A DNA stretch of 37,709 nucleotides from positions 1-37,709 of the forward strand of contig MFYT01000068.1 of NCBI GenBank assembly GCA_001789205.1, given 5' to 3'. Source of the stretch: Candidatus Raymondbacteria bacterium RIFOXYA2_FULL_49_16. Lineage in GTDB: Bacteria; Fibrobacterota; OXYB2-FULL-49-7; XYB2-FULL-49-35. Under the pieces are notes generated by a model that saw nothing but the letters and a program-made list of their open reading frames with translations, did no database searches and had not been told where the DNA came from. The position numbers and the translations under genes were made by a program. Shown piece by piece: positions 3,001-37,709 of the stretch (the stretch's first letter is position 1; each line of letters starts with the position of its first letter).

Positions 3001-6000
3001 AAGCGTTCTTCTCTTCTCAAGCGGGTGGGTGCCCTGTATTCAGGGCTTGCCAAAGAAGACAAGACCATTACTTCATGGGAGGAGTATCTCAAGAGTAACA
3101 ACGATGTCGAGGTGGCAAAAAAACTGCTCGCTATTTACAAGAAAAATAACCGGATTGAGGATGTGCGGCGCATGTATTCCATTATTGCCAGGGTCGACAC
3201 CAAGGACGCGGACAATCTGATGAACCTTGGTCTTCTCGACTACGAGTTCAAAAAACAGGTTGACGCTTTGGGTTCTTTTAACCGGGTGCTGGCGCTTAAT
3301 CCGAACCATAAAGAAGCGCTGTATATGGCCGGTAAAATCTATTTTGAAATAAAAGATTATACCAAGGCTTTGCCCAAATTGACCGTTGCGGTGCGCGTTG
3401 ACCCCTCGTCGATCAAGGCCGCTCTCTGCCTTGCCGACTTGTATTACGAGACAAAGAAAGCGGATGAGGCTATTGAGTTTTATAAAAAAGTTTCGGTTGT
3501 TGAGCCGCGCAATGAATATGTCCTAGACCGCCTAGTAGATCTGTATAGGATAAAAAAGCAAGATGGCGACCTCATCTTCTTCCTCAAGAAAAAGACGGAA
3601 CTCAACGCGAAAGCGGGGGATGCGTGGGTCGAGTTAGGCGTTTTCTATCGCAAGGCAAGGAGAAACGAGGAAGCTGAAGTTGCCTTCAAGAAAGGGCTCG
3701 ATATCAAAGGCGAAAACTACGATGCCTTTGTGAACCTTGCGGAAATGTTTGTCGAGAAAAAACGGGTTGAGGAGGCGATTGAGTACTATAAGAAGGCCAT
3801 CTATGTCCAGTCAAAAAATCCGGTCAACTACATGAAACTGGGGCGGATCTATCTCTCTAAAGGCGATTCAACCGCGGCCATGGACGCTTTTGAAAAAGTC
3901 CTTCAGTACGATCAGAACAGCGGAGAAGCCATCTCAATTCTCGGCAATCTCTATGTTTCGTTTAACTACCAGGACAAAGCAATATCTACGTTCCAGAAAA
4001 TTGTAAAGGCAAATCCCAAGGATCCGTCAGGATACAAAGCATTGGCCAGATCTTACCTTGGCCAATCGAAGTACCGCGAAGCAGAGGCAAATTTGAACAA
4101 CGCGTTGCGGCTTTCCCCGAAGGATGCGCAGGCGCTTTATCTTATGGGTGACCTTTACAACGCCCAGAAAGATCACGGCCGCGCTATTGCTTATTACGGC
4201 AAGGCCTATCAGCTAAATCCCGATGATATTGATAATGCAGGTAAATACGCTGATGCTCTCTACGAGGATAAAAACTTCAAAACCGCGCTGCCGGTTTTGC
4301 TCCGTCTCAAAGCCCAAAGTAAAAGTGATCCGCGTATTACAGCGGTGCTCATGGATTGCTATCTGTCTCTGGGCGACCATGCAAACGCCATGAAGTATGT
4401 TGATATCCTTGAAAAGGCCGATCCCAAGCTGCTCGCGAAGAATTTCAAGGTTGCCGTGGCATTTTACAAGCTCAATAAATTTGACAAGGCGCAGTCAATA
4501 CTTGAGGCCATGGGTCCCCAGAAAAACAAGGAATATTACAATATGCTGGCCAATATCTACATTTCCAAAAAGAAATGGAACGATGCTGCCGACGCCATGA
4601 AGGAGTTGCTGGCGCAAGATCCGAGTGATCTGAAAATGAGCCTGCAACTAGGCGATATCTACGAGAACAGGGGAGACGATGAGCTGGCGGTGGAATTGTA
4701 TAAGAAGATGGAGACACCCTATCCACGAGAATTGCTTCTCAAGGAACGCCTCGTCAAGCTGTATAAAAAGCTTGGTTCTGAAAAAGTTGAGGATCTGCGG
4801 ATCTCCTTGAACGAAGCCATTGGCCTGAACCCGAAGAACGCGGATTATCTTTTTGAACTTGCCGCAATAATGTTCAACGATGGACAAATGGGAGAGGCGC
4901 GGGCAAAGCTATCTCAGGTTGTTACCATGCTTCCAAGCCATCCTCAAGCCAACGCTCTCCTTGGACGAATCTTTCTTGAGAACAAAGACTTCGGCAGGGC
5001 TGAGCAGTATCTGCTCATTGCGGCGAAAACCATGGAAAAGGACCCGGTCATTACCCGCAGTCTGGGCGAGCTCTATCTTCAGACCAAACGGTACGACAAG
5101 GCGCGTTCCTATCTTGAGGCTACGCGCGCGGCCAATCCTCAGGACATGGGCACTATTATTAAGTTAGCTGAGGCCTACGAAAAACTCAATCTCAACGACG
5201 CCCTTTTCAATCTGTATATTACCATCACCAAGAAAGACCCGACCAATGTTGTGGCCCACAAGGGATTGGGCGACATCTATTACGGTAAAAAGCAATTCAA
5301 GGACGCAATGAGCGAATACCGCATTGTTGTTCAGCTCAAGAATGACGACGTCAAGGTTCTGAATCGTCAGGCTGGCATGCTTCTCGATATTGGGAAGATT
5401 GACGAAGCCGTGGGTCTTTTCCGAAGCTCTCTGCAGTATTCGCCAAACCAACCTGATATTGCCTACAAATTGGGTGTTATCTTTCTCAACAACAGGGGCA
5501 ATGAAGAGGCGGCAAAGGAGCAGTTCGAACGGGTCATTCTCATTGACCCGAAGAACGGAGACGCGTATAAAATGCTGGCAGCTATTTATCTGCAGGGCAA
5601 TGACCGCGCGTCGGCTGTCCGCTATTTTCAACAGGCGCTCTCGGTAAATCCCAATGATATTGAGAGTATGAGTAAGCTCGCGGACCTGATGGTAAAAGAC
5701 GGTGATATCAAAGAGGCCGAACCCATTCTTGTAAAAGCAGTGGCCGCGAATCCTAAGGATATTCAGTCCAAAATATCGCTTGGACGTCTGTATTTGAACA
5801 CCAAGCGGTTCAAAGAGGCCGAACCCCTGCTTGCAGCGGCTGAAAAGGCAAAGCCCGCGGACCTGCAACTAATGATGGATGTCATAAAAATCTATAATGG
5901 CCTGGGCCAGTTTGCCCAGGTAATCCCGCGTCTTGAGAAACTGGTGCAGTCTGGTCAGGCGACCAATGACGTGAAAATGCAGCTGGGTATCGCTTATTTC

Positions 6001-6822
6001 GGCAAGGGTGAAGTAGCCAAGGCGAAAAAGATACTCGAAGAACTGCTTACCAAGATCGAAGGTTCGGTCGAAGCCTACCAGATACTCGCGACTATCTATT
6101 ATTCGGAAAATGATCTACGCAAGGCCAAAATAGTCTTCAGAAAAATGCTCGATCTGGACAAGGCAAACCCCGAGGCGAATTTTTACCTTGGCGAACTTGC
6201 CTACGCCGACAAAGATTACGACCTTGCGGTCGTGTATTATGAAATGGTGCTTGCCTCTGATCCAAATCGTGAAGGTATCACAGACCATTTGGCTGAATGC
6301 TATGTCATCCAGGGCAACTACGAAAAGGCGAAGACTTTTATTAAGGCTGGCCTCAAAAAAGATTCGAAAAATGGAATGCTGCTCCTCAACTATGGCAAAG
6401 TCCTTTTTGCTGAGGAGAACTACAAAGAATCGCTGAAGTTTTTGAGTCTGGCCACAAAGGCCATGCCGGGCAACGATGAACCAGCTTATTTCTACCTCAT
6501 GGCCCTGGTAAAGCTAGAGGATGTCAACGCTGCGCTCAATCTCTCCAAGGAGTTTGTGGCAAAGTTCAAGAGCTCGGACAAGATCTATTTTGCCACGGGC
6601 AGCGCCTTTATGCTCGCGAAACAGGCGGACAAAGCGCTTAAAGCGTTTCAGTTGGCGCTAAAATTGAATCCAAATTATCGCGATGCGTATAAAAAATGCG
6701 GCGATATTTATTTCGGGTTTATGAAGGACAATGCTGCGGCTGTTGCGAATTACAAACGCTATGTGTCGCTGGGCGGAAATTCTGACGATATTCCCCGGCT
6801 CTTGCGCGATAAAATGCAATAA
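1..6822 (+). CDS. Giant tetratricopeptide-repeat (TPR) protein, 5' end outside window
   Basis: The frame is open from base 1 with no start that must be used, so the N-terminus is missing; about 2,270 residues are visible. Almost the whole length is tandem ~34-residue TPR units with the usual small/aromatic pattern (for example A-x-x-x-Y at unit ends, repeated N-P-K-D or D-P-x-N turns between helices). At 34 residues each there is room for more than 60 units. TPR arrays form superhelical protein-binding scaffolds. No enzymatic domain, membrane span or export signal is visible in the part present; whether it has a signal peptide cannot be judged. The C-terminus ends naturally after a last TPR (YVSLGG, then LLRDKMQ). 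It is followed 21 bp later by a small lipoprotein gene, which suggests an envelope role, but that is inference. All Glu/Lys codons before about base 400 end in G, unlike the remainder. Confidence 0.9.
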   Translation, partial: LQAALSLKVREDEVIKRLGDAYYNAKNLKAALPYLERDNAKNAGNAETLERLVNAYLSVQDAANAVKYLKVLNQKDPGKFGSSYLAAYAFVLQKDDKSAQPILEKYCAANGSDDKALRMLADLYKRQNNAKGAVEVLEKMYAAKARPELKKEVGDLLVKIDLPNAAEAYEIYIKTNPKDKQVLLALRDLYEALKHDESLNPVLQRLLVLDPSNEALLSRIGDIDFANKRYKEAVTVYAQVVKRNPKNSGADLVLGESYYNLNQYALAEPFLVKAVERNSNDVDLTLHLAQVFEKNKKTNNAADTYEKVFAKRQKDIALIDKLISLNEALGNKARLIELYRTRQDVSGKKDKDQLLKLGAIYLAQKKTNDAITTFEAVLLLDKENMAALQALADLYEQNKNLKEASSRLEQLIALKPDADLYLRLAHMYIDMKDSTKAIDPLEKYTAAKKIAPVELYVLGKCYLTQKAADKAENALLKAQDQAEKTNKELFGVALKTLYGIYSAKGDNDNIKKTLVKLTVFDPKNADYNYELGERFYRDKAYDAALKSLLVANAVSPNLRNAPLMIGTILYMKKQGKQALPYLQVAEKADAKNNDVHRMLAGIYSENPATFNLAANQYETVLQSDRKDIESAKSLMALYEKQKRQKELVPVYERILELEPANKVAWLKLGTLAADLKDDARTERAFLKVVELDLKNLQALITLGEFYEARKKSKEAIGHYLKVIEQKPKNQIEFERRVGELYLAANDTANAETYFSKVIETDPYQHEVSFKLGVITQEKKNYTGAASYFELAAEAKPEIAKYNFRAGLCYFKQSDYPNAKRLLLVALKRDPKIAEANFMVGQILMTQDAFAAAIPYFGSANKYKPDDLDYLKFYAEAAFKAKNYPQAIPLYKTLLAKKADDFESRANLGRCFMYLKQNKEALGEFDKVFTGRVQLIEDEYAIGELYFMEKRSTEAQRILVNVLRTHPENADAQQMVAEIFEANGDKQKAIDHYDEAVKADKKRSSLLKRVGALYSGLAKEDKTITSWEEYLKSNNDVEVAKKLLAIYKKNNRIEDVRRMYSIIARVDTKDADNLMNLGLLDYEFKKQVDALGSFNRVLALNPNHKEALYMAGKIYFEIKDYTKALPKLTVAVRVDPSSIKAALCLADLYYETKKADEAIEFYKKVSVVEPRNEYVLDRLVDLYRIKKQDGDLIFFLKKKTELNAKAGDAWVELGVFYRKARRNEEAEVAFKKGLDIKGENYDAFVNLAEMFVEKKRVEEAIEYYKKAIYVQSKNPVNYMKLGRIYLSKGDSTAAMDAFEKVLQYDQNSGEAISILGNLYVSFNYQDKAISTFQKIVKANPKDPSGYKALARSYLGQSKYREAEANLNNALRLSPKDAQALYLMGDLYNAQKDHGRAIAYYGKAYQLNPDDIDNAGKYADALYEDKNFKTALPVLLRLKAQSKSDPRITAVLMDCYLSLGDHANAMKYVDILEKADPKLLAKNFKVAVAFYKLNKFDKAQSILEAMGPQKNKEYYNMLANIYISKKKWNDAADAMKELLAQDPSDLKMSLQLGDIYENRGDDELAVELYKKMETPYPRELLLKERLVKLYKKLGSEKVEDLRISLNEAIGLNPKNADYLFELAAIMFNDGQMGEARAKLSQVVTMLPSHPQANALLGRIFLENKDFGRAEQYLLIAAKTMEKDPVITRSLGELYLQTKRYDKARSYLEATRAANPQDMGTIIKLAEAYEKLNLNDALFNLYITITKKDPTNVVAHKGLGDIYYGKKQFKDAMSEYRIVVQLKNDDVKVLNRQAGMLLDIGKIDEAVGLFRSSLQYSPNQPDIAYKLGVIFLNNRGNEEAAKEQFERVILIDPKNGDAYKMLAAIYLQGNDRASAVRYFQQALSVNPNDIESMSKLADLMVKDGDIKEAEPILVKAVAANPKDIQSKISLGRLYLNTKRFKEAEPLLAAAEKAKPADLQLMMDVIKIYNGLGQFAQVIPRLEKLVQSGQATNDVKMQLGIAYFGKGEVAKAKKILEELLTKIEGSVEAYQILATIYYSENDLRKAKIVFRKMLDLDKANPEANFYLGELAYADKDYDLAVVYYEMVLASDPNREGITDHLAECYVIQGNYEKAKTFIKAGLKKDSKNGMLLLNYGKVLFAEENYKESLKFLSLATKAMPGNDEPAYFYLMALVKLEDVNAALNLSKEFVAKFKSSDKIYFATGSAFMLAKQADKALKAFQLALKLNPNYRDAYKKCGDIYFGFMKDNAAAVANYKRYVSLGGNSDDIPRLLRDKMQ

Positions 6823-6843
6823 GAAAAATAAAGGAATATTCTT

Positions 6844-7038
6844 ATGAAAAAATTTCTTGTTTTAAGCGTGGTGGCTTTGCTTTTCGCAGGTTTTGCCGGT
6901 GGTTGTTCACAAAAACTGACCCAGGAAGAGAAAACGCAGCTTGAAGAGGCCAAGACGGCGGCCGAAGACGCCCAGAAAAAGCTGCACGAGATGCGTCAGG
7001 AAAAAGCCAAGCTCGAGGCTGAGAAGCAGGGGAAGTAG
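6844..7038 (+). CDS. Small coiled-coil lipoprotein
   Basis: A 64-residue protein that starts with MKK, has a hydrophobic stretch at residues 4-18 and a Cys at residue 21 preceded by A-G-G, i.e. a signal-peptidase-II type signal with a slightly unusual lipobox (Ala rather than Leu at -3). The mature ~44 residues are almost all Glu, Lys, Gln and Ala with heptad-like spacing, so they should form a single charged helix or coiled coil, as in Lpp-like small lipoproteins. AAGGA at 6831-6835 lies 8 bp before the ATG. It sits between the giant TPR gene and leuS with short gaps and is probably co-transcribed with the TPR gene. Family not recognised beyond this; a role in envelope tethering is only a possibility. 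LspA, needed to process it, is encoded at 28811. Confidence 0.8.
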   Translation: MKKFLVLSVVALLFAGFAGGCSQKLTQEEKTQLEEAKTAAEDAQKKLHEMRQEKAKLEAEKQGK

Positions 7039-7047
7039 AGCTTTTTT

Positions 7048-9744
7048 GTGGCACGCTACGATGCATCCGAGATAGAGCCCAAATGGCAGCGTTTTTGGGA
7101 TGAAGGCGGCGTTTTCAGGACGACCGCCGACCATACACGGCCCAAGTTTTATTGCCTCGACATGTTTCCGTATCCCTCTGGAGCGGGACTGCATGTAGGC
7201 CATCCCGAAGGGTATACAGCGACTGATATCATTTGCCGTTACAAACGTGCAAAAGGTTTCAATGTGCTTCACCCCATGGGTTGGGACGCTTTCGGCCTGC
7301 CTGCTGAACACTACGCCATCCAGACAGGCACGCACCCATCCATAACAACGGCGAAGAATTGCGAGACCTTTCGCAGGCAGATCAGGCGGCTTGGCCTTTC
7401 GTACGATTGGGAACGGGAGGTCAATACGACCGACCCGAAATATTACAGATGGACGCAGTGGATATTCATCAGACTGTACGAAACATGGTTCGATCCTGTT
7501 TTGGGAAAGGGACGGCCTATCAACGAACTGCCCATACCTCCGGAGGTGGCCGCAGGCGGGCCAGCTGCGGAGCGGACATACAGAGACGGTAAGAGGCTTG
7601 CATATTATGCGGACGCCCAGGTATGGTGGTGCGACAAATGCAGCATTGTCTGTGCGAACGAGGAAGTACTCGCTGATGGTTCTCATGAAAAATGCGGTAC
7701 CAAGGAGATCCGCCGCCGTAATCTCAAACAGTGGCTCATGCGCATCCCTTTGTATGCCGAACGGCTTCTCCAAGGCTTGGAAACTCTCGATTGGCCCGAG
7801 GGAATCAAGGAGATGCAGCGCAATTGGATCGGCCGTTCCTCTGGAGCGGAAGTTGATTTTACAGTCGCTATCACATCGACGGTCTCTTCCTCTTTGACGC
7901 TCAGGGTCTTCACCACGAGGCCGGACACTCTTTTTGGGGCCACGTACATGGTGGTTGCTCCGGAACATCCGTCGCTCAATGCCCTGGTTTCTCCTGAGCA
8001 GAAGGCTGCGGTTGAAATGTACAGGAAGAACGCGGCCCTTAAATCAGACTTGGACCGCACCGAACTAGCTAAGGAAAAGACAGGGGTCTTTACCGGTGCC
8101 TATGCGGTTAATCCGGTGAATGGAAACCGGATTCCTGTCTGGGTCGCTGATTATGTTCTTATGGGATATGGGACCGGCGCGATTATGGCGGTCCCAGCCC
8201 ACGATACGCGCGACTTTGAATTCGCTTCCAAATTCAATTTGCCGATTGTCTGCATCATGGAGCCCGATGCCACCTGCCCTCAAGACCTGCGCGAAATGGT
8301 CATCTCGGGAAAGGCGTGCTGGACCGAGGATGGCAGATATATCAGCAGTTCCAGCCCAATCTCGGGACTCTCCATTAATGGACTATCGAAAGAGGAGGGG
8401 GTCGCCGCAACAATTACATGGTTGGAGAAACAGGGTTTGGGCAAGGCATCTGTCAATTACAAAATAAGGGACTGGCTTTTCAGCAGGCAGCGATACTGGG
8501 GCGAGCCCTTCCCGGTAATCCACTGGAACGATGGGGGTGTTTCACTGATCCCTGAAAACGAACTTCCTGTCGTGCTGCCGGATATCGTGGATTTCAGGCC
8601 CCGTGAAGGCGGAGAAAGCCCGCTCTCTAACGCGGAAACGTGGCTCAATATAACTGATCCTGCAACAGGGCGCAAAGGACGCAGGGAAACCAATACCATG
8701 CCCCAATGGGCGGGATCGTGCTGGTACTATTTGAGATATATTAGCCCGCAATGCGATGCGGCTTTTGTGGATCCCGGCGAAGAACGGTACTGGATGCCGG
8801 TGGACCTGTATGTCGGAGGCGCGGAACATGCGGTGCTCCATCTGTTGTATAGCAGATTTTGGCACAAGGTGCTGTACGATCTTGGTCTGGTAAGCACGGA
8901 TGAGCCTTTTAAAAAGCTTTTCAATCAGGGTATGATCCTCTCCTATGCATACGAAGACGCTTCCGGAAGTCTTGTGCCTTCAGATGAAGCCGAAGAACGT
9001 AATGGGAAATTCTTTAAAAAAGGGACTGATGAGGGACTCCGCCAAATCGTCGCAAAGATGAGCAAGTCTCTGAAGAATGTCGTTAATCCTGACGAGATAG
9101 TGCGGAAACATGGCGCCGATTCCCTCCGATTGTATGAAATGTTCATGGGGCCGCTCGAAGCGACCAAGCCCTGGCAGACCCAGGGTATTGATGGTATGTA
9201 TCGTTTTCTCCAGCGCACTTTCAGAGCAATTGCCGGAGATGATGAAAAAACACCAACATTTAGTATCCTAGCGCCTCCTAAGTCATTGATTAGATTAACG
9301 CACCAGAGTATTGTTAAAGTATCAAGAGATATTGAAGATTTGTGCTTGAATACTGCGATTAGTCAACTGATGATTTTTTGCAACGAAATGCTGAAAAGTC
9401 CTGAAAGGTATCTTGCGGTATGTGAGGTCTTTGTCCAATTGCTCCATCCATTTGCCCCGCATTTGGCGGAAGAGCTTTGGGAAATGCTAGGAAAAAAGGG
9501 CGGTCTGGCTGGCGTACCATGGCCTGTTGCTGATCTGTCGCTTACAATCGAAGATACTCTCGAGATTGTCTTTCAAGTCAATGGCAAGGTCCGCGGCCAT
9601 ATCACTGTGGAGCGCGACCTTTCAAAAGAGAAGTTGGAGGAATATGCGCGCGCTGACGAGAAGGTTAAGGCGTTTATCGGGACAGGACAGATACGTAAAG
9701 TGATTGTCGTTCCAAACAAGCTGGTCAATATTGTGGTAAACTGA
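7048..9744 (+). CDS. leuS: Leucyl-tRNA synthetase
   Basis: Charges tRNA-Leu with leucine (class Ia synthetase, cytoplasmic). The 898-residue product is slightly longer than the ~860 of Escherichia coli. It has the HIGH motif as HVGH at 49-52 inside the typical FPYPSG...[10 protein letters not shown] block, a Cys-rich zinc-type insertion (CDKC ... C) near 194-220, the CP1 editing domain with [14 protein letters not shown] and [12 protein letters not shown], the KMSKS loop at 670-674, and a C-terminal VNGKVRG segment. The start is GTG; GGAAG at 7031-7035 is a modest ribosome-binding site inside the end of the lipoprotein gene. The stop lies only 5 bp from the stop of argF on the opposite strand, and no hairpin terminator is visible between the two. 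Confidence 0.97.
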
Positions 9745-33188: not shown

Positions 33189-33368
33189 ATGTTAAAAGTA
33201 CATGAGAACATAAGTCGCCTACACAAAAGCCAAGGCTGGACACAGTCCGATCTCGCCCAAAGGCTCGGTACTTTGCAAATCGTACGTTTGGAGAATCTCT
33301 ACGAAGAACTCTCCTCAAACGAACAGCGGGTTATTCTCAAACGAGTGGAAGTTCTCGCAGAACGATAA
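33189..33368 (+). pseudogene. XRE-type helix-turn-helix gene with an internal deletion
   Basis: A 59-residue frame, ATG to TAA. Residues 5-26 are the first two helices of an XRE/Cro domain (ENISRLHKSQGWTQSDLAQR then LG). The recognition helix and the turn that should follow (typically S-x-x-x-I-S-x-W-E-x-G) are absent; the text jumps to a C-terminal helix of the kind that ends such regulators (LENLYEELSSNEQRVILKR). This looks like an in-frame deletion joining the front and back of a longer XRE protein. Without helix 3 it should not bind DNA specifically, hence the pseudogene label, though a short protein could still be made. No ribosome-binding site is evident. 15 bp before the antitoxin at 33384. 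Confidence 0.6.
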
Positions 33369-33383
33369 TAAAAAGGATTAACC

Positions 33384-33611
33384 ATGGCTCCGAACTATCC
33401 GAAACTCATTGCCGAAACAGTGCAAGTGCTTCCAGTCCCGGAACAGGCCGAGGTGTACACCTTTGCCCAATTCGTACGCACTAAATCAGACGAGCACAGA
33501 CCATTACGGCGCTCCAACCGCAAACAAAGATCCGTCTTCTCCATGTTCGGTAAGGCCACAGCCAAAGTGACGGACGCCTCCATCAACCACGACAAGTATA
33601 TCTATGAATAA
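33384..33611 (+). CDS. VapB-like antitoxin
   Basis: A 75-residue protein directly upstream of a PIN toxin, overlapping it by 8 bp. The N-terminal helix pair (KLIAETVQVLPVPEQAEVYTF then AQFVRTKS) resembles DUF2281-type antitoxin N-termini (leucine, then P-x-x-x-Q-x-x-V-x-x-F-x-x-F-x-x). The C-terminal tail SVFSMFGKATAKVTDASINHD is a likely toxin-neutralising segment. AAAAGGA precedes the ATG. The DNA-binding capability is uncertain because no AbrB or ribbon-helix-helix pattern is obvious. Confidence 0.75.
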   Translation: MAPNYPKLIAETVQVLPVPEQAEVYTFAQFVRTKSDEHRPLRRSNRKQRSVFSMFGKATAKVTDASINHDKYIYE

Positions 33612-34026
33612 GCCGGTATTCGTTGACACGTCAGCATGGTTCGCCAGCATTGCCAAAAATGACCAGTCACATCGTCAGGCTATTGCGGAACACCATAAAC
33701 TGATAAAAGACAAAGCCCGCTTTTTCACATCCAATCTTGTGGTGCATGAGTCAACCATTCTTCTGGAACGTAAGGTGAACAGGCGGGAAGGGGTGCAATT
33801 CCTGACGTCAATTATCGAGGACCCAAACGTGGAGATTATCCACGCTACGCCTGAGATGGAACATGAGGCATATCAGCTTTATGAAAAATACCTGGATCAG
33901 GATTTCTCAGTTGCGGATTGCGTGTCTTTCACAATCATGAAACACTTCGATATCCATCGTGCGTTCACGTTCGATGATCATTTCCGCACTAGGGGCTTCG
34001 AGATGGTGCCACATACAAACCGGTGA
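33604..34026 (+). CDS. PIN-domain ribonuclease toxin (VapC-like)
   Basis: A 140-residue PIN nuclease expected to cleave RNA. All four acidic positions are present: Asp-8 in VFVDTSAWFA, Glu-49 in VVHESTILL, Asp-105 in FSVADCVSF and Asp-124/125 in FTFDDHF. It overlaps its antitoxin gene by 8 bp, the usual arrangement. The stop is followed within 10 bp by repeat R1. Confidence 0.9.
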   Translation: MNKPVFVDTSAWFASIAKNDQSHRQAIAEHHKLIKDKARFFTSNLVVHESTILLERKVNRREGVQFLTSIIEDPNVEIIHATPEMEHEAYQLYEKYLDQDFSVADCVSFTIMKHFDIHRAFTFDDHFRTRGFEMVPHTNR

Positions 34027-34034
34027 AAACATAA

Positions 34035-34197
34035 CCCCCGCCCACCTAAGCCCGCGTGCAAGTATACTCATGCCGCATTCCGCTCTATTTGCTTTACATA
34101 ATTAGCGTCCACGCGCTTTTGCACGGTCGCCCCGTAAGCGGATCGAGTTAGGTTAGGTCTCTGATGCATGGGTTACGCCTCCGACCGCATAGCCGAG
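34035..34197. repeat. Repeat R1 downstream of the first PIN gene
   Basis: Starts with CCCCCGCCCACC and ends with CGCATAGCCGAG; related over its whole length to R2 (35928-36085) at roughly 80% identity in the first 73 bp by eye. It contains CTTTACATAA (34092-34101) and, inverted, GACCGCATAG (34183-34192), a degenerate pair of the dif-like half-sites described at 35985. No open frame runs through it. Confidence 0.8.
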
Positions 34198-34230
34198 TAC
34201 CTTTTGAAAACTATTGAAGGGCATGGGTAG

Positions 34231-34345: not shown

Positions 34346-34555
34346 ATGAGACGCGACACATTCACCGCAGTCATTCACAAGGAAGAGAATCTGTACGTTG
34401 CCGAATGCCCGGAAGTCGGCACTTTCAGCCAGGGCTACAACATTGAAGAGGCTTTAAGCAACCTCAAGGAAGCGACCGAGTTGTATTTGGAAGAGTTCCC
34501 GCTTCAAAAGACAGACCGCACGTTCATGACCACCTTTGAGGTTGAGCATGCCTAA
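34346..34555 (+). CDS. hicB: HicB-type antitoxin, minimal form
   Basis: 69 residues from ATG 34346, chosen because AAGGAGG at 34331-34337 precedes it and because HicB proteins begin with this strand. The partial RNase H fold is clear (FTAVIHKEENLYVAECPEVGTFSQGYNIEEALSNLKEATELYLEE). There is no C-terminal helix-turn-helix or ribbon-helix-helix extension, so the protein alone should not bind DNA. Its stop overlaps hicA by 8 bp. HicB neutralises the HicA ribonuclease by direct contact. The antitoxin-first order is less common than hicA-hicB but known. Confidence 0.92.
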   Translation: MRRDTFTAVIHKEENLYVAECPEVGTFSQGYNIEEALSNLKEATELYLEEFPLQKTDRTFMTTFEVEHA

Positions 34556-34775
34556 GCTTCCAAAGCTTTCGGGTAGCGAGGTCGTCAAAGCGCTCGAACG
34601 CATGGGATTTCATCAGGCACGACAGCGAGGCAGTCATGTGGTTATGAAAAAGGTATTATCGCAAGGTGCAGTAGGCTGTGTTGTTCCCATGCACAGGGAG
34701 GTTGCAACCGGAACTTTGCATGGCCTGCTGAAACAGGCTGCGGTTTCTCCGGAAGATTTCATGGCAAACCTGTAG
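34548..34775 (+). CDS. hicA: HicA-type mRNA interferase toxin
   Basis: 75 residues from ATG 34548, with GAGG at 34538-34541. It has the double-stranded-RNA-binding-like HicA fold: LSGSEVVKALERMGFHQARQ, then the catalytic His in RGSHVVM, then VVPMH, and GTLHGLLKQAAVSPEDF at the end. The glycine-serine-histidine and the last helix are intact, so the toxin is probably active. An in-frame TTG at 34536 is an alternative start. Confidence 0.92.
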   Translation: MPKLPKLSGSEVVKALERMGFHQARQRGSHVVMKKVLSQGAVGCVVPMHREVATGTLHGLLKQAAVSPEDFMANL

Positions 34776-35300: not shown

Positions 35301-35519
35301 ATGTCTGCAACACTCACCATCACTTTGCCGCCAAGAATGAAAGCTGATCTCGATAAAATGGCCAGGAAAACCCATCTCCGCAAAGGCGACCTTGTCCGCG
35401 GCGCTATCGGCAGGCTTGTGGCAAGGCAGCAGTTCCAGGCTATTCGTGAGGAATTGGCCGCTGAAGCGCAGCAAAAAGGCATTTATACGGACGAAGACAT
35501 CTTCAAGATGGTCTCATGA
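35301..35519 (+). CDS. Ribbon-helix-helix (CopG-type) antitoxin
   Basis: 72 residues from ATG 35301 (AAGGAG at 35286-35291); the longer frame from 35244 has no such site and runs through the promoter. The N-terminal beta strand SATLTITLPPRMKADLDKM followed by two helices (THLRKGDLVRGAIGRLV) is a classic RHH DNA-binding unit. The C-terminal 30 residues are a charged helix for toxin binding. Overlaps the PIN gene by 4 bp (ATGA). Expected to repress its own promoter through the TCAA-N4-TTGA dyad. Confidence 0.88.
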   Translation: MSATLTITLPPRMKADLDKMARKTHLRKGDLVRGAIGRLVARQQFQAIREELAAEAQQKGIYTDEDIFKMVS

Positions 35520-35923
35520 GAGTCTTCCTCGATACGAACGTCCTGCTTTCCGCTTTCTACTCGCATGGTACTTGCACCGAACTCTATGACCATTGCTTGG
35601 ATGCTCATGTTCTTTTTACCAGCGAATTTGTCCTTGAGGAGTTCCGGGAAAAGGCGGTCCGCAAACTCAAGTTCTCGCCGGAGCGTGTGGTAAAGGCTCT
35701 CCATAACATTCAGATGTACTCCATCATGGTCTCGGAAGCCACACTCCCGCATCCCATCTGCAAGGACAAGGACGATGACCATATTGTGGCTGCGGCGGTG
35801 AAGGCAGAAGTCGCCTGTATCGTGACCGGAGACAAGGAATTTCAGGAACTCAAATCCACCATGGGAATTCCCATCGTCGCTCCGTCGGATTTCTGGAAAT
35901 TCTCAGGACATCACGCGTCCTAA
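35516..35923 (+). CDS. PIN-family toxin (COG1569-like)
   Basis: 135 residues. Acidic PIN residues: Asp-6 in VFLDTNVLLSAF, Glu-41/42 in VLEEFREK, the KDKDDDHIVAAAV cluster at 83-95, and Asp-106 in VTGDKEF. This spacing fits the 'putative toxin component, PIN family' group and not the VapC at 33604, from which it differs throughout. Translationally coupled to the RHH antitoxin. Its stop is followed within 5 bp by repeat R2. Confidence 0.9.
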   Translation: MRVFLDTNVLLSAFYSHGTCTELYDHCLDAHVLFTSEFVLEEFREKAVRKLKFSPERVVKALHNIQMYSIMVSEATLPHPICKDKDDDHIVAAAVKAEVACIVTGDKEFQELKSTMGIPIVAPSDFWKFSGHHAS

Positions 35924-35927
35924 TATT

Positions 35928-36085
35928 CCCCCGCCCACCCAAGCCCGCTTTCAAGTACGCTCATTCCGCTTCCTGCTCCACTCGCTTTACATAATCAGCG
36001 CTATGCGCCCATGCACAGCCGCCCCGCGAACGGGTCGAGCCAAGTCCCTGATGCATGGGTCAAACCCTTCGGGCGCATAGCCGAG
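35928..36085. repeat. Repeat R2 downstream of the second PIN gene
   Basis: Second, better preserved copy of R1, with the same start (CCCCCGCCCACC) and end (CGCATAGCCGAG). Its left edge also carries AAGCCCGCTTTCAAGTACGC (35941-35960), which returns inverted with 3 mismatches at 36091-36110, so the unit has a second pair of arms outside the dif-like ones. Confidence 0.8.
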
Positions 36086-36096
36086 ATTATGCAAAC
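35985..36096. repeat. Palindromic unit with inverted dif-like ends (copy C-D)
   Basis: Left end: CTTTACATAA, 6-bp TCAGCG, CTATGCGCCC (35985-36010). Right end, inverted: GGGCGCATAG, 6-bp CCGAGA, TTATGCAAAC (36071-36096). The arms match except in the 6-bp centres and at single positions. Each end resembles a Xer site, e.g. E. coli dif with XerC half GGTGCGCATAA, 6-bp centre and XerD half TTATGTTAAAT. CCCATGCA and TGCATGGG form a further inner stem. Folded as single strand it would leave the centres as unpaired internal loops. Confidence 0.65.
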
Positions 36097-36212
36097 TTGC
36101 AAGCGGGCTTTCCCACCGCCCCAGGGCTCCCATCACCAAACGTTCTTTTCACTCCCAATCAAGGTAATCCTCTAATCCTACGAATCACGGTTCAGACAAT
36201 TTCTTCTCCTGC

Positions 36213-36268
36213 CGAAAACCGTGCCAACCTACGCCATTTTTAAGCGGCTTCGGTCGTCACGGTTTTCG
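36213..36268. repeat. 11-bp perfect inverted repeat
   Basis: CGAAAACCGTG (36213-36223) and CACGGTTTTCG (36258-36268), spacer 34 bp, in the 182-bp gap between two dif-like units. No T tract follows. A further CACGGTT at 36186-36192 suggests decay of a larger repeated structure. No convincing gene lies here; a 62-residue frame at 36055-36243 crosses R2 and has no family features. Confidence 0.6.
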
Positions 36269-36278
36269 CTCCCCCCAA

Positions 36279-36368
36279 GTTTGCATAATTTTCGCTATGT
36301 GGTCCGCCTATGGCGGAAGACCCACGCCCAGGGATGGGCTTGGGCATCATAGCGCAGATTATGTAAAG
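36279..36368. repeat. Palindromic unit with inverted dif-like ends (copy E-F)
   Basis: Left end: GTTTGCATAA, TTTTCG, CTATGTGGTC (36279-36304). Right end, inverted: GGCATCATAG, CGCAGA, TTATGTAAAG (36343-36368). Same architecture as 35985-36096 with a shorter, different interior that holds its own TCCGCC/GGCGGA hairpin. The left end is nearly the reverse complement of the right end of copy C-D (36071-36096). After it, 36369-36450 holds nothing recognisable. Confidence 0.6.
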
Positions 36369-36450: not shown

Positions 36451-36864
36451 TCAAGACTTTGGCATGTTTTTTGTTTTAATAAAAGATTGTTTTATTTTCA
36501 ATCCTATCAGCGAAATGATACGAAAAAAAATCAACCAAAGATAAAACTTGAAAGGTAATATGATCAACGGCCACCACCAATCAGTCACAATCGTTAATTT
36601 GTGGGTTTTGAGTATGCCCATTATCCAGTTATTATTACTACTCAAGTCAAGCCAAGACTTGTCCAAATACATAATATTACAAAGTAATGGCGTAACTGGC
36701 AGCGAATGTGGATTATCTATTTTGCCATCATCGAAGATGTTGATTTGTTGCGGCCCTAATTGAGTACTCAGAAAATGATAGGAAATAAACATACAAAACA
36801 CAATTAAAACTAGAGCGGAATTGAAATTGTGTAATAATAATTTTCGGAGCAAATCTTTAGTCAA
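36451..36864 (-). CDS. Candidate membrane immunity protein for the RHS toxin
   Basis: 137 residues starting at TTG 36864, which has a GGGAG ribosome-binding site 8 bp upstream and overlaps the RHS stop by 8 bp. Two strongly hydrophobic spans, about 16-35 and 97-120, flank a ~60-residue polar, Asn-rich loop; the C-terminus is basic (IKQSFIKTKNMPKS). No family recognised. Small genes placed immediately after an RHS C-terminus usually encode the cognate immunity protein; a membrane-located one would fit a toxin acting in the periplasm or on the membrane. AT-rich compared with the housekeeping genes of the window. Confidence 0.65.
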   Translation of the reverse strand: MTKDLLRKLLLHNFNSALVLIVFCMFISYHFLSTQLGPQQINIFDDGKIDNPHSLPVTPLLCNIMYLDKSWLDLSSNNNWIMGILKTHKLTIVTDWWWPLIILPFKFYLWLIFFRIISLIGLKIKQSFIKTKNMPKS

Positions 36865-37709
36865 GCCTATTTCTCCCTGAGCTCATCATGCCATTCTTGT
36901 TCTCGTATAGCCATTCTTGGCCATATGGGTCATACATGTACCCATCTCCACCAGAATTCCCTGCTCTACCTGGATCATATATATAATCATCAACAGAATA
37001 ATTTGTGGTCTGATTCCTGTATAAATCAAAGACCATGTTGCCTAATGTAATAAGTTCTTTCCCAGAAAGGTATCCACCACTCACCAATTCTGTTATGATG
37101 GTTCCCGCTAAATTTCGATTATACTGCGTAGTCTCTGATTTGTATGACATCCCGAGAGGTAATAGATCACCCATTTGATTTTGAACATTACCAAGCTCAA
37201 ACGCATAGTTTACAGCAGTCCATAATCCTGAGCTGCCAGTAGCCATTTTGTTTGCATTAACATCAATGCTATTTAGAGTCCCCCCATAGTTAATATTAAC
37301 ACCTCTATTGGTCATTCTGTTTGACCAATTTGCTGTTGTGACGCCCCAGGCAAAATTACCCGATTCATTCTGGACATATGGGAGGTGTCCAAAAGTTACG
37401 GGGACTGGTGATTCATCAATGCCTGTAAGAATATTTTGAGCAGTTGGTGACCTGTACAAATATTCCAAAGCAGTAGAAGATATAGAATTTGCAGCAATCA
37501 CCAATCTACCATCTGGATCAATATTTGTGATAGGATTATCCCAACAGAATACATAGGGACTAATACCCATGGCCATGTCTTCAACATTAGGATCAATGCC
37601 CATCCATCTTCCGATTTCCGGGTCATAGTATCTAGCGCCGATTAGATACCATAGCTCATCCGCAGAGGTCCCGTTTGTTTCTATCCGTATGTATCCCATC
37701 AGTTTACCG
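36857..37709 (-). CDS. RHS-repeat protein C-terminus with variable toxin tip (5' end outside window)
   Basis: The frame remains open to the window edge (G-K-L precedes the first Met), so this is the 3' end of a larger gene. The first ~65 visible residues are the RHS core-associated signature: YLIGARYYDPEIGRWMGIDP, then SPYVFCWDNPITNIDPDG, with DPDG at residues 61-64 counted from the Met at 37699. This motif marks the self-cleavage end of the RHS cage. The following ~215 residues are the variable toxin tip, rich in Asn, Ser, Gly and Tyr; I do not recognise its fold or active site. RHS proteins deliver such tips to neighbouring cells by type VI or other export routes. AT-rich, which suggests horizontal transfer. 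Confidence 0.88.
   Translation of the reverse strand, partial: GKLMGYIRIETNGTSADELWYLIGARYYDPEIGRWMGIDPNVEDMAMGISPYVFCWDNPITNIDPDGRLVIAANSISSTALEYLYRSPTAQNILTGIDESPVPVTFGHLPYVQNESGNFAWGVTTANWSNRMTNRGVNINYGGTLNSIDVNANKMATGSSGLWTAVNYAFELGNVQNQMGDLLPLGMSYKSETTQYNRNLAGTIITELVSGGYLSGKELITLGNMVFDLYRNQTTNYSVDDYIYDPGRAGNSGGDGYMYDPYGQEWLYENKNGMMSSGRNRLD

Follow-up and report, generated by a model that had tools for sequence, protein, structure and literature searches.

Inverted pairs of dif-like sites beside toxin genes in Fibrobacterota, candidate folded-strand attachment sites of mobile elements carrying Rhs tips

Integron integrases are close relatives of the Xer recombinases. Among the described systems closest to the locus reported here is the attP(+) site of CTX phage, whose single strand, by folding, joins two oppositely oriented dif-like sites into one Xer site (PMC3089051); the phage has been called an incomplete analogue of integrons, having no integrase of its own and a stem without extrahelical bases (PMC4792948). 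In Acinetobacter, the dif-like sites of pdif/dif modules occur next to toxin-antitoxin genes (PMC12907356), and the rAID (recombinase-associated acquired interbacterial defence) systems of Bacteroidales combine a tyrosine recombinase with toxin-immunity genes and conserved intergenic motifs (PMC12247911). A literature search, mainly of openly accessible papers, found no published description of a system such as the one outlined below.

We analysed a 37,709-nt stretch of DNA (the window), which is contig C68 of the 5.43-Mb draft genome of Candidatus Raymondbacteria bacterium RIFOXYA2_FULL_49_16 (G000; other G numbers denote relatives, and L numbers denote loci). An earlier reading of its letters, the original prediction, had proposed inverted pairs of dif-like sites with a 6-bp centre, and this was confirmed: four sites, at 35986-36005 (+), 36076-36095 (-), 36280-36299 (+) and 36348-36367 (-), match TTTRCATAA-N6-CTATG with 0 mismatches, as compared with a chance expectation of ~0.001-0.003 sites of this type in the window. 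The sites form two units (Table 1). The inner region of unit A spans 70 nt and contains additional hairpins, and unit B is homologous to A on the opposite strand (covariance model scores of 70.1 bits on the plus strand and 65.3 bits on the minus strand), so that the two units are convergent. Both fold far better than shuffled sequences, as DNA or RNA and on either strand (z -4.9 to -6.3), and the element is larger than the unit itself, with an outer stem, P0, closing over a 5' region of ~30 nt. A third unit, R1, had been read as a decayed copy with sites at both ends; it is indeed a decayed copy, with scattered similarity to the left part of A (82% over 34035-34107, 73 bp), but only its left XerD arm is left (34093-34101), and its folding does not differ from that of shuffles (z near 0). 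The inverted repeat between the convergent units recurs downstream of unit copies in contigs C23 and C9, and also in C91.

Table 1. Features of the window, with loci elsewhere that carry tandem palindromic pairs in the last row.
Feature	Coordinates	Strand	Details
Truncated HTH regulator of mobile element	33189..33368	+	43% identity over 46 aa to G057 HTH
DUF2281-like antitoxin	33384..33611	+	56% identical to the G057 gene between HTH and S unit
PIN toxin	33604..34026	+	Followed by R1
R1, decayed unit	34093..34208	+	Left arm TTTACATAA intact; remaining arms and folding lost
HicB/HicA toxin-antitoxin pair	34346..34775	+	Between R1 and A
RHH (CopG-like) antitoxin	35301..35519	+	Upstream of A
PIN-domain (PIN_3) toxin	35516..35923	+	Stop 62 bp before start of A
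Outer stem P0 of A, left strand	35941..35956	+	Pairs with 36095-36110
5' region of A	35957..35985	+	From P0 to dif-like arm; TACGCTC..TTCC..; similar in other genera
Unit A, inverted dif-like pair	35986..36095	+	TTTACATAA-TCAGCG-CTATG ... CATAG-CCGAGA-TTATGCAAA
Outer stem P0 of A, right strand	36096..36110	+	CTTGCAAGCGGGCTT
Inverted repeat between convergent units	36213..36268	.	CGAAAACCGTG...CACGGTTTTCG
Unit B, reverse-oriented homologue of A	36280..36367	-	TTTACATAA-TCTGCG-CTATG ... CATAG-CGAAAA-TTATGCAAA on minus strand
Presumed immunity gene	36451..36864	-	Directly after Rhs tip, then B; presumed from position only, no family match
Rhs protein, C-terminal part	36857..37699	-	Rhs core TIGR03696 and variable tip; contig ends here
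Loci with tandem palindromic pairs			L180, L185, L186, L188, L195-L198, L200, L202-L204, L206-L208

In the window, PIN-R1, HicBA and PIN-A follow one another in tandem, and the succession of truncated HTH gene, DUF2281-PIN pair (33384-34026) and R1 parallels the order HTH, DUF2281-type gene, S unit in G057. Toxin-antitoxin genes had been predicted beside the units, and toxin genes are constant neighbours, but those adjoining B are an Rhs tip and its presumed immunity gene. Overall, Rhs tip and immunity gene are no less a conserved neighbour of the units than toxin-antitoxin modules. No recombinase gene was found in the window. Between 33037 and 35240, CCCGCCCACCYA occurs within ~10 bp after each of PIN, HicA and PIN, and a downstream CTCTTGTTTTCCCTTA repeat is common to the D-Tyr-tRNA deacylase and HicA genes.

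A dif pattern search located the dif of this genome, CGCATAA-TATATA-TTATGTAAA (= CGCATAATATATATTATGTAAA), at a single position, C8:101956; many Fibrobacterota genomes have this sequence or a near-identical one. The cumulative GC skew over the 192-kb contig C8 peaks in the 8-kb bin that holds this site, and the polarity of GGGNAGGG flips there, being 13:2 to the left of it and 3:12 to the right, as expected at a terminus. The key test of the original prediction was the comparison of the unit half-sites with this dif, and they agree: the outer arms of the units (TTATGTAAAG, TTATGCAAAC) are identical to its XerD half-site, and the reverse complement of the left end of A, CGCATAG-CGCTGA-TTATGTAAA, is 1 mismatch away from dif when the centre is left free. 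Units in G051 and G055 match both dif halves with a 6-bp centre. The units of this genome are carried on C68, C23, C40 and C9 and dif on C8, and hence they are not located at the chromosomal dif. In G043, many contigs carry a dif-like GGCATAAATTATTTTATGTTAA ~61 bp inside their ends, at repeat ends (e.g., C55:61-82).

By sequence, the units of the phylum fall mainly into an S class (78-90 nt) and an L class (105-112 nt), and a further type is that of G051. Covariation in the 22-bp main helix of the S class was assessed in 10 S units from 4 genomes (G000, G057, G077 and G081), revealing compensatory double changes in 12 of the 22 pairs and one-sided changes in 0; 83% of cells were paired, as compared with 31-45% in slid controls, and 0/500 shuffles reached this value. 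In the L class (8 units), 89% were paired, versus 28-51% in controls, with double changes in 8 pairs. The outer nine pairs, which form the XerD arm, are nearly invariant, and changes in the centre and XerC arm are matched on both sides (e.g., GTTACC/GGTAAC in C9). Because these inner parts vary while staying paired, it is the folded strand, rather than two duplex sites, that appears to be under selection. The inner half-site CTATG of the original prediction, exact in A and B, is replaced elsewhere by CAATATG, TTTTG or GTTACC, yet remains base-paired; a search of IMG/VR, GTDB and 101 relatives for inverted pairs with CTATG kept exact, which returned only this genome, was too strict given the variable XerC arm. 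Most S copies keep a mismatch at the fourth arm pair (TTTACATAA versus TTATGCAAA) and one mismatch in the centre. By eye, P0 covaries as well (GCGCAGG/CCTGCGC, CGGCCGAAG/CTTCGGCCG and CCGCCAG/CTGGCGG), and in flank comparison many copies show, again by eye, a further small hairpin, with TCC as its loop, that separates P0 from the main stem.

Within this genome, a nucleotide search recovered diverged copies of the unit at C23:175690, in C40 and at C9:42457, and a whole-genome covariance model search yielded five S copies in 5.4 Mb and no more, so that the units are not REP-like here. Like B, the C40 and C23 units come after an Rhs tip and a small gene. On C91, a helicase fragment, an HTH gene, VapBC and hairpins are followed, on the other strand, by a small gene and an Rhs tip, the same layout as at the right end of the window; the mobile element to which such pieces belong is only partly present in the assembly. 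The C40 unit is split by a group II intron (C40:1662-3557, L044) with RVT_1 and GIIM domains, inserted inside the stem at TTACA^TAAT, which recalls the introns that target attC sites. No gene turnover exactly at the edge of a unit was seen in this genome, which speaks against the original prediction. Contig C75 contains three tyrosine recombinases in tandem, in a RIT-like arrangement (5700-8500, L067); the idea that the units are the ends of this element was dropped, as searches of the genome found no unit there.

Among the 168 genomes of the phylum, 22 contain an inverted pair with perfect arms, and a reversed-pattern control was rarer. At most of the loci read, the unit directly follows the 3' end of a gene or operon, and facing pairs of units, 0.2-0.65 kb apart, are frequent. 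In G045, G055 and G077, the units adjoin an HTH gene, a gene of DUF5659 type (~110 aa), either a helicase or a CHC2 primase, and a tandem pair of tyrosine recombinases, and in G058 a helicase and one recombinase, with the hairpin directly after the latter, are found at three places. A profile of the helicase matched 9/168 genomes, 7 of which are among the 22 carrying units (hypergeometric P = 8e-6); in five cases, helicase and unit share a contig and are no more than 5 kb apart. The element loci are adjoined by orphan Rhs tips, each followed by another gene (L139, L142 and L145), and units in G015, G081 and G093 have Rhs core or Rhs-like genes on their flanks; an Rhs core stands beside units in these three genomes and in C68, C40 and C23. 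A motif count gave a modest excess of Rhs cores close to units (8/34, versus 0/34 in control loci, which were shorter). In G069, units adjoin a Tn3-type transposase-like gene and a serine resolvase (L155 and L211), possibly hitch-hiking on transposons. IS91-type transposon ends were rejected, as no Y2 transposase was noticed beside any unit read.

The recombinases of the Fibrobacterota elements score 180-246 bits against XerC/XerD models, and their pairs score 84-120 bits against the integron integrase model, for which the cut-off is 265. They retain the catalytic residues R-H-R-H-Y and lack an insertion at the integron I2 position, the distance from K to HxxR being 55-72, versus 68-75 in XerC/D. 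Xer enzymes had been named as the drivers of the system; the enzymes are of Xer type, but the likely recombinases are not simply those of the host; the elements of relatives encode XerC/XerD-like enzymes themselves.

A relaxed pattern matched 30 loci in GTDB, of which up to about eight would be expected by chance if all genomes were AT-rich. Matches of the hairpin type include Magnetococcales, Desulfarculales (adjoining a PAAR gene), a Thiothrix plasmid, Saprospiraceae (an inverted pair, then Rhs core and tip) and Flavobacteriaceae, in which the order is Int1-Int2-ORF6N-unit-inverted unit-Rhs; the layout recurs in these Bacteroidota loci. In the Flavobacteriaceae loci L192 and L199, Int2 has lost the first catalytic arginine, along with other active-site residues, and keeps the tyrosine; the arginine loss would suit the exchange of a single strand. 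Many of the matches, in Paenibacillus, Tissierellia and Clostridium, were set aside as having a different architecture, in which two palindromic sites, TTTACATAA-N6-TTATGTAAA, stand in tandem and in direct order in AT-rich DNA with a spacing of 50-70 bp. On plasmids, the helicase occurs beside HTH, toxin-antitoxin and XerC-like or tyrosine recombinase genes in Janthinobacterium (with Imm26), Leptospira and Salmonella, and covariance models of the unit found no hairpin in these loci or in that of Caballeronia. A looser palindrome scan did identify a hairpin in Caballeronia, with P0, a small hairpin and a main stem (z -7.5), ACATAA arms and a different inner arm. This plasmid carries two tandem copies of the element (L265, 895-3925 and 8461-11491) that are 99% identical over 3,032 bp, comprising the primase end, the recombinase, the hairpin and the Rhs core, with divergence setting in within the core and different toxin tips thereafter. 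The duplication is direct evidence that tips have been exchanged beside the site, by homologous or site-specific recombination.

We lean, at slightly above an even chance, towards the view that the units are dif-derived attachment sites, used as folded strands, of mobile elements carrying Rhs tips, and that the window holds sites left over from them. The units would derive from the chromosomal dif and have been adapted to function as a single strand in folded form, in which the two mirrored sites would pair into one duplex Xer site with the XerD arm at the base, the mismatched centre and then the XerC arm above it, and variable loops on top. Such folding of single strands is probable, and we infer that the strand is DNA, that the recombinases of the element act on it and that only one pair of strands is exchanged. 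The element family would comprise an HTH regulator, toxin-antitoxin genes, a primase or helicase, one or two XerC/XerD-like recombinases and an Rhs tip with its immunity gene; recombination at the units would insert or remove elements beside Rhs loci and thereby import new toxin tips and toxin-antitoxin modules, leaving behind sites and gene remnants such as those in the window. Of the Xer-driven, folded-strand cassette system that had been predicted, the selected pairing of the two sites was borne out, but the units appear to lie at a mobile-element junction rather than between single-gene cassettes. Counted against our explanation are the lack of a recombinase gene in the window, the incomplete assembly of the element in this genome, the dispersal of units in G051, the negative result of the hairpin models at the four plasmid loci, the modest excess of Rhs cores, and the fact that none of the loci showed a recombination product, an empty site or an excised circle.

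The G051 dispersal is a reason to consider that the units are non-autonomous, REP- or MITE-like repeats, spread by an unrelated enzyme such as a transposase or reverse transcriptase and landing in intergenic gaps beside toxin genes. In that genome the units are embedded in non-coding repeats of ~0.7 kb (mostly 73-93% identical) at no fewer than eight (>= 8) intergenic places, and no Rhs or recombinase gene was noticed beside them; the group II intron within the C40 unit would also fit, as would one G051 copy in which the repeat follows, at 230 bp, a four-helix-bundle (Avd-like) gene and a reverse transcriptase (L219 38-1580, on contig C84 of G051). REP-like scatter, which had been named as a pattern speaking against the original prediction, is thus seen in G051, but not in G000 with its five S copies. 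Many copies moreover keep both half-sites and the 6-bp spacing of the local dif, and the units are associated with Xer-encoding elements. We consider such repeats an unlikely source of the units.

The conserved P0 and small hairpin around the dif arms could alternatively belong to an RNA, and somewhat less probable than dispersed repeats is a reading in which toxin operons carry at their 3' end a regulatory hairpin or structured RNA, acting like a terminator or in RNA stability and resembling dif by coincidence. Units lie just past gene ends, their fold of P0, small hairpin and main hairpin is complex and conserved, and covariation, which does not separate RNA from DNA, fits either equally. 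Against this, the dif arms and their spacing are exact, an Rfam search of the window gave no match, the hairpin is not followed by a T-run, and linkage to recombinases extends over several phyla. Slightly more doubtful again would be a replication origin or primase-loading site, at which the CHC2 primase or helicase would act on the folded strand and the dif arms would serve only for multimer resolution: fully read copies of the element do have a primase or helicase near the unit on the HTH side, and the three-way fold is like that of priming structures generally, but units also stand alone after toxin-antitoxin or Rhs genes without a primase (in the window, L213 and L217).

It is very improbable that the units are two ordinary inverted duplex sites, used without folding for inversion or as the ends of a pdif-type module, even though both sites have a 6-bp centre and pdif modules carry toxin-antitoxin genes (PMC12907356). 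At just 48-70 bp apart the sites would be too close for duplex synapsis, their centres differ by a conserved mismatch whereas duplex sites recombining with each other would be expected to keep identical ones, and the covariation of the stem extends beyond the sites. Attachment-site remnants of a CTX-type filamentous phage, whose attP likewise has two opposed dif-like sites ~90 bp apart in a 150-nt hairpin (PMC3089051), are barely credible, since no filamentous phage gene lies beside the units read, the units are away from dif, and the helicase had no relatives in phage or IMG/VR collections.

Considered as dif-derived attachment sites, the units resemble CTX attP(+) and the sites of other elements exploiting Xer recombination (IMEX) in that two dif-like sites in inverted orientation, ~50-100 nt from each other, can come together by folding as one Xer site; unlike these, they belong to no phage and are not at dif, the elements of relatives encode their own Xer-type enzymes, the pairing covaries around conserved mismatches, and the cargo consists of Rhs tips and toxin-antitoxin genes. 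As in integron attC sites, the hairpin has a conserved outer arm, a mismatched centre, a covarying inner arm and a variable top and lies at the 3' end of a gene, and the conserved mismatches of the S units recall the extrahelical bases of attC. The arms differ, however (TTTRCATAA / TTATGYAAA, versus RYYYAAC / GTTRRRY in attC), the recombinases are XerC/D-like without the I2 insertion and there is no IntI, and the units form convergent pairs beside a mobile element, with no array of single-gene cassettes seen. Like the sites of pdif modules they adjoin toxin-antitoxin genes, but those modules are bounded by single duplex sites in alternating orientation and here each boundary is a hairpin of two sites. 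An own recombinase and a location away from dif, the lack of an IntI together with other arms, and a hairpin in place of a single site therefore set the units apart from the defining features of CTX-type IMEX, integrons and pdif modules, respectively. With rAID they have in common a tyrosine recombinase, genes for toxins and immunity, and intergenic motifs that are conserved, and they are set apart from rAID arrays, in which a single recombinase goes with orphan immunity genes; with REP/BIME and MITE sequences they share small intergenic palindromes, dispersed in G051, and differ in their low copy number in this genome, their dif arms and their tie to Xer-encoding elements.

We would put forward only tentatively, as a proposal rather less probable than its converse, that Fibrobacterota, Bacteroidota and Pseudomonadota share a complete single-strand-hairpin system with element-encoded Xer-type recombinases lacking I2, dedicated to shuffling Rhs tips, immunity genes and toxin-antitoxin genes and intermediate between CTX and integrons. 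If true, it would define a path for the exchange of Rhs toxins and their immunity genes among bacteria, and a mobile element combining its own Xer-type enzymes with dif-derived, mismatched hairpins would make the evolutionary step from Xer to integron testable, as a possible missing link between the phage's trick and the integrons.
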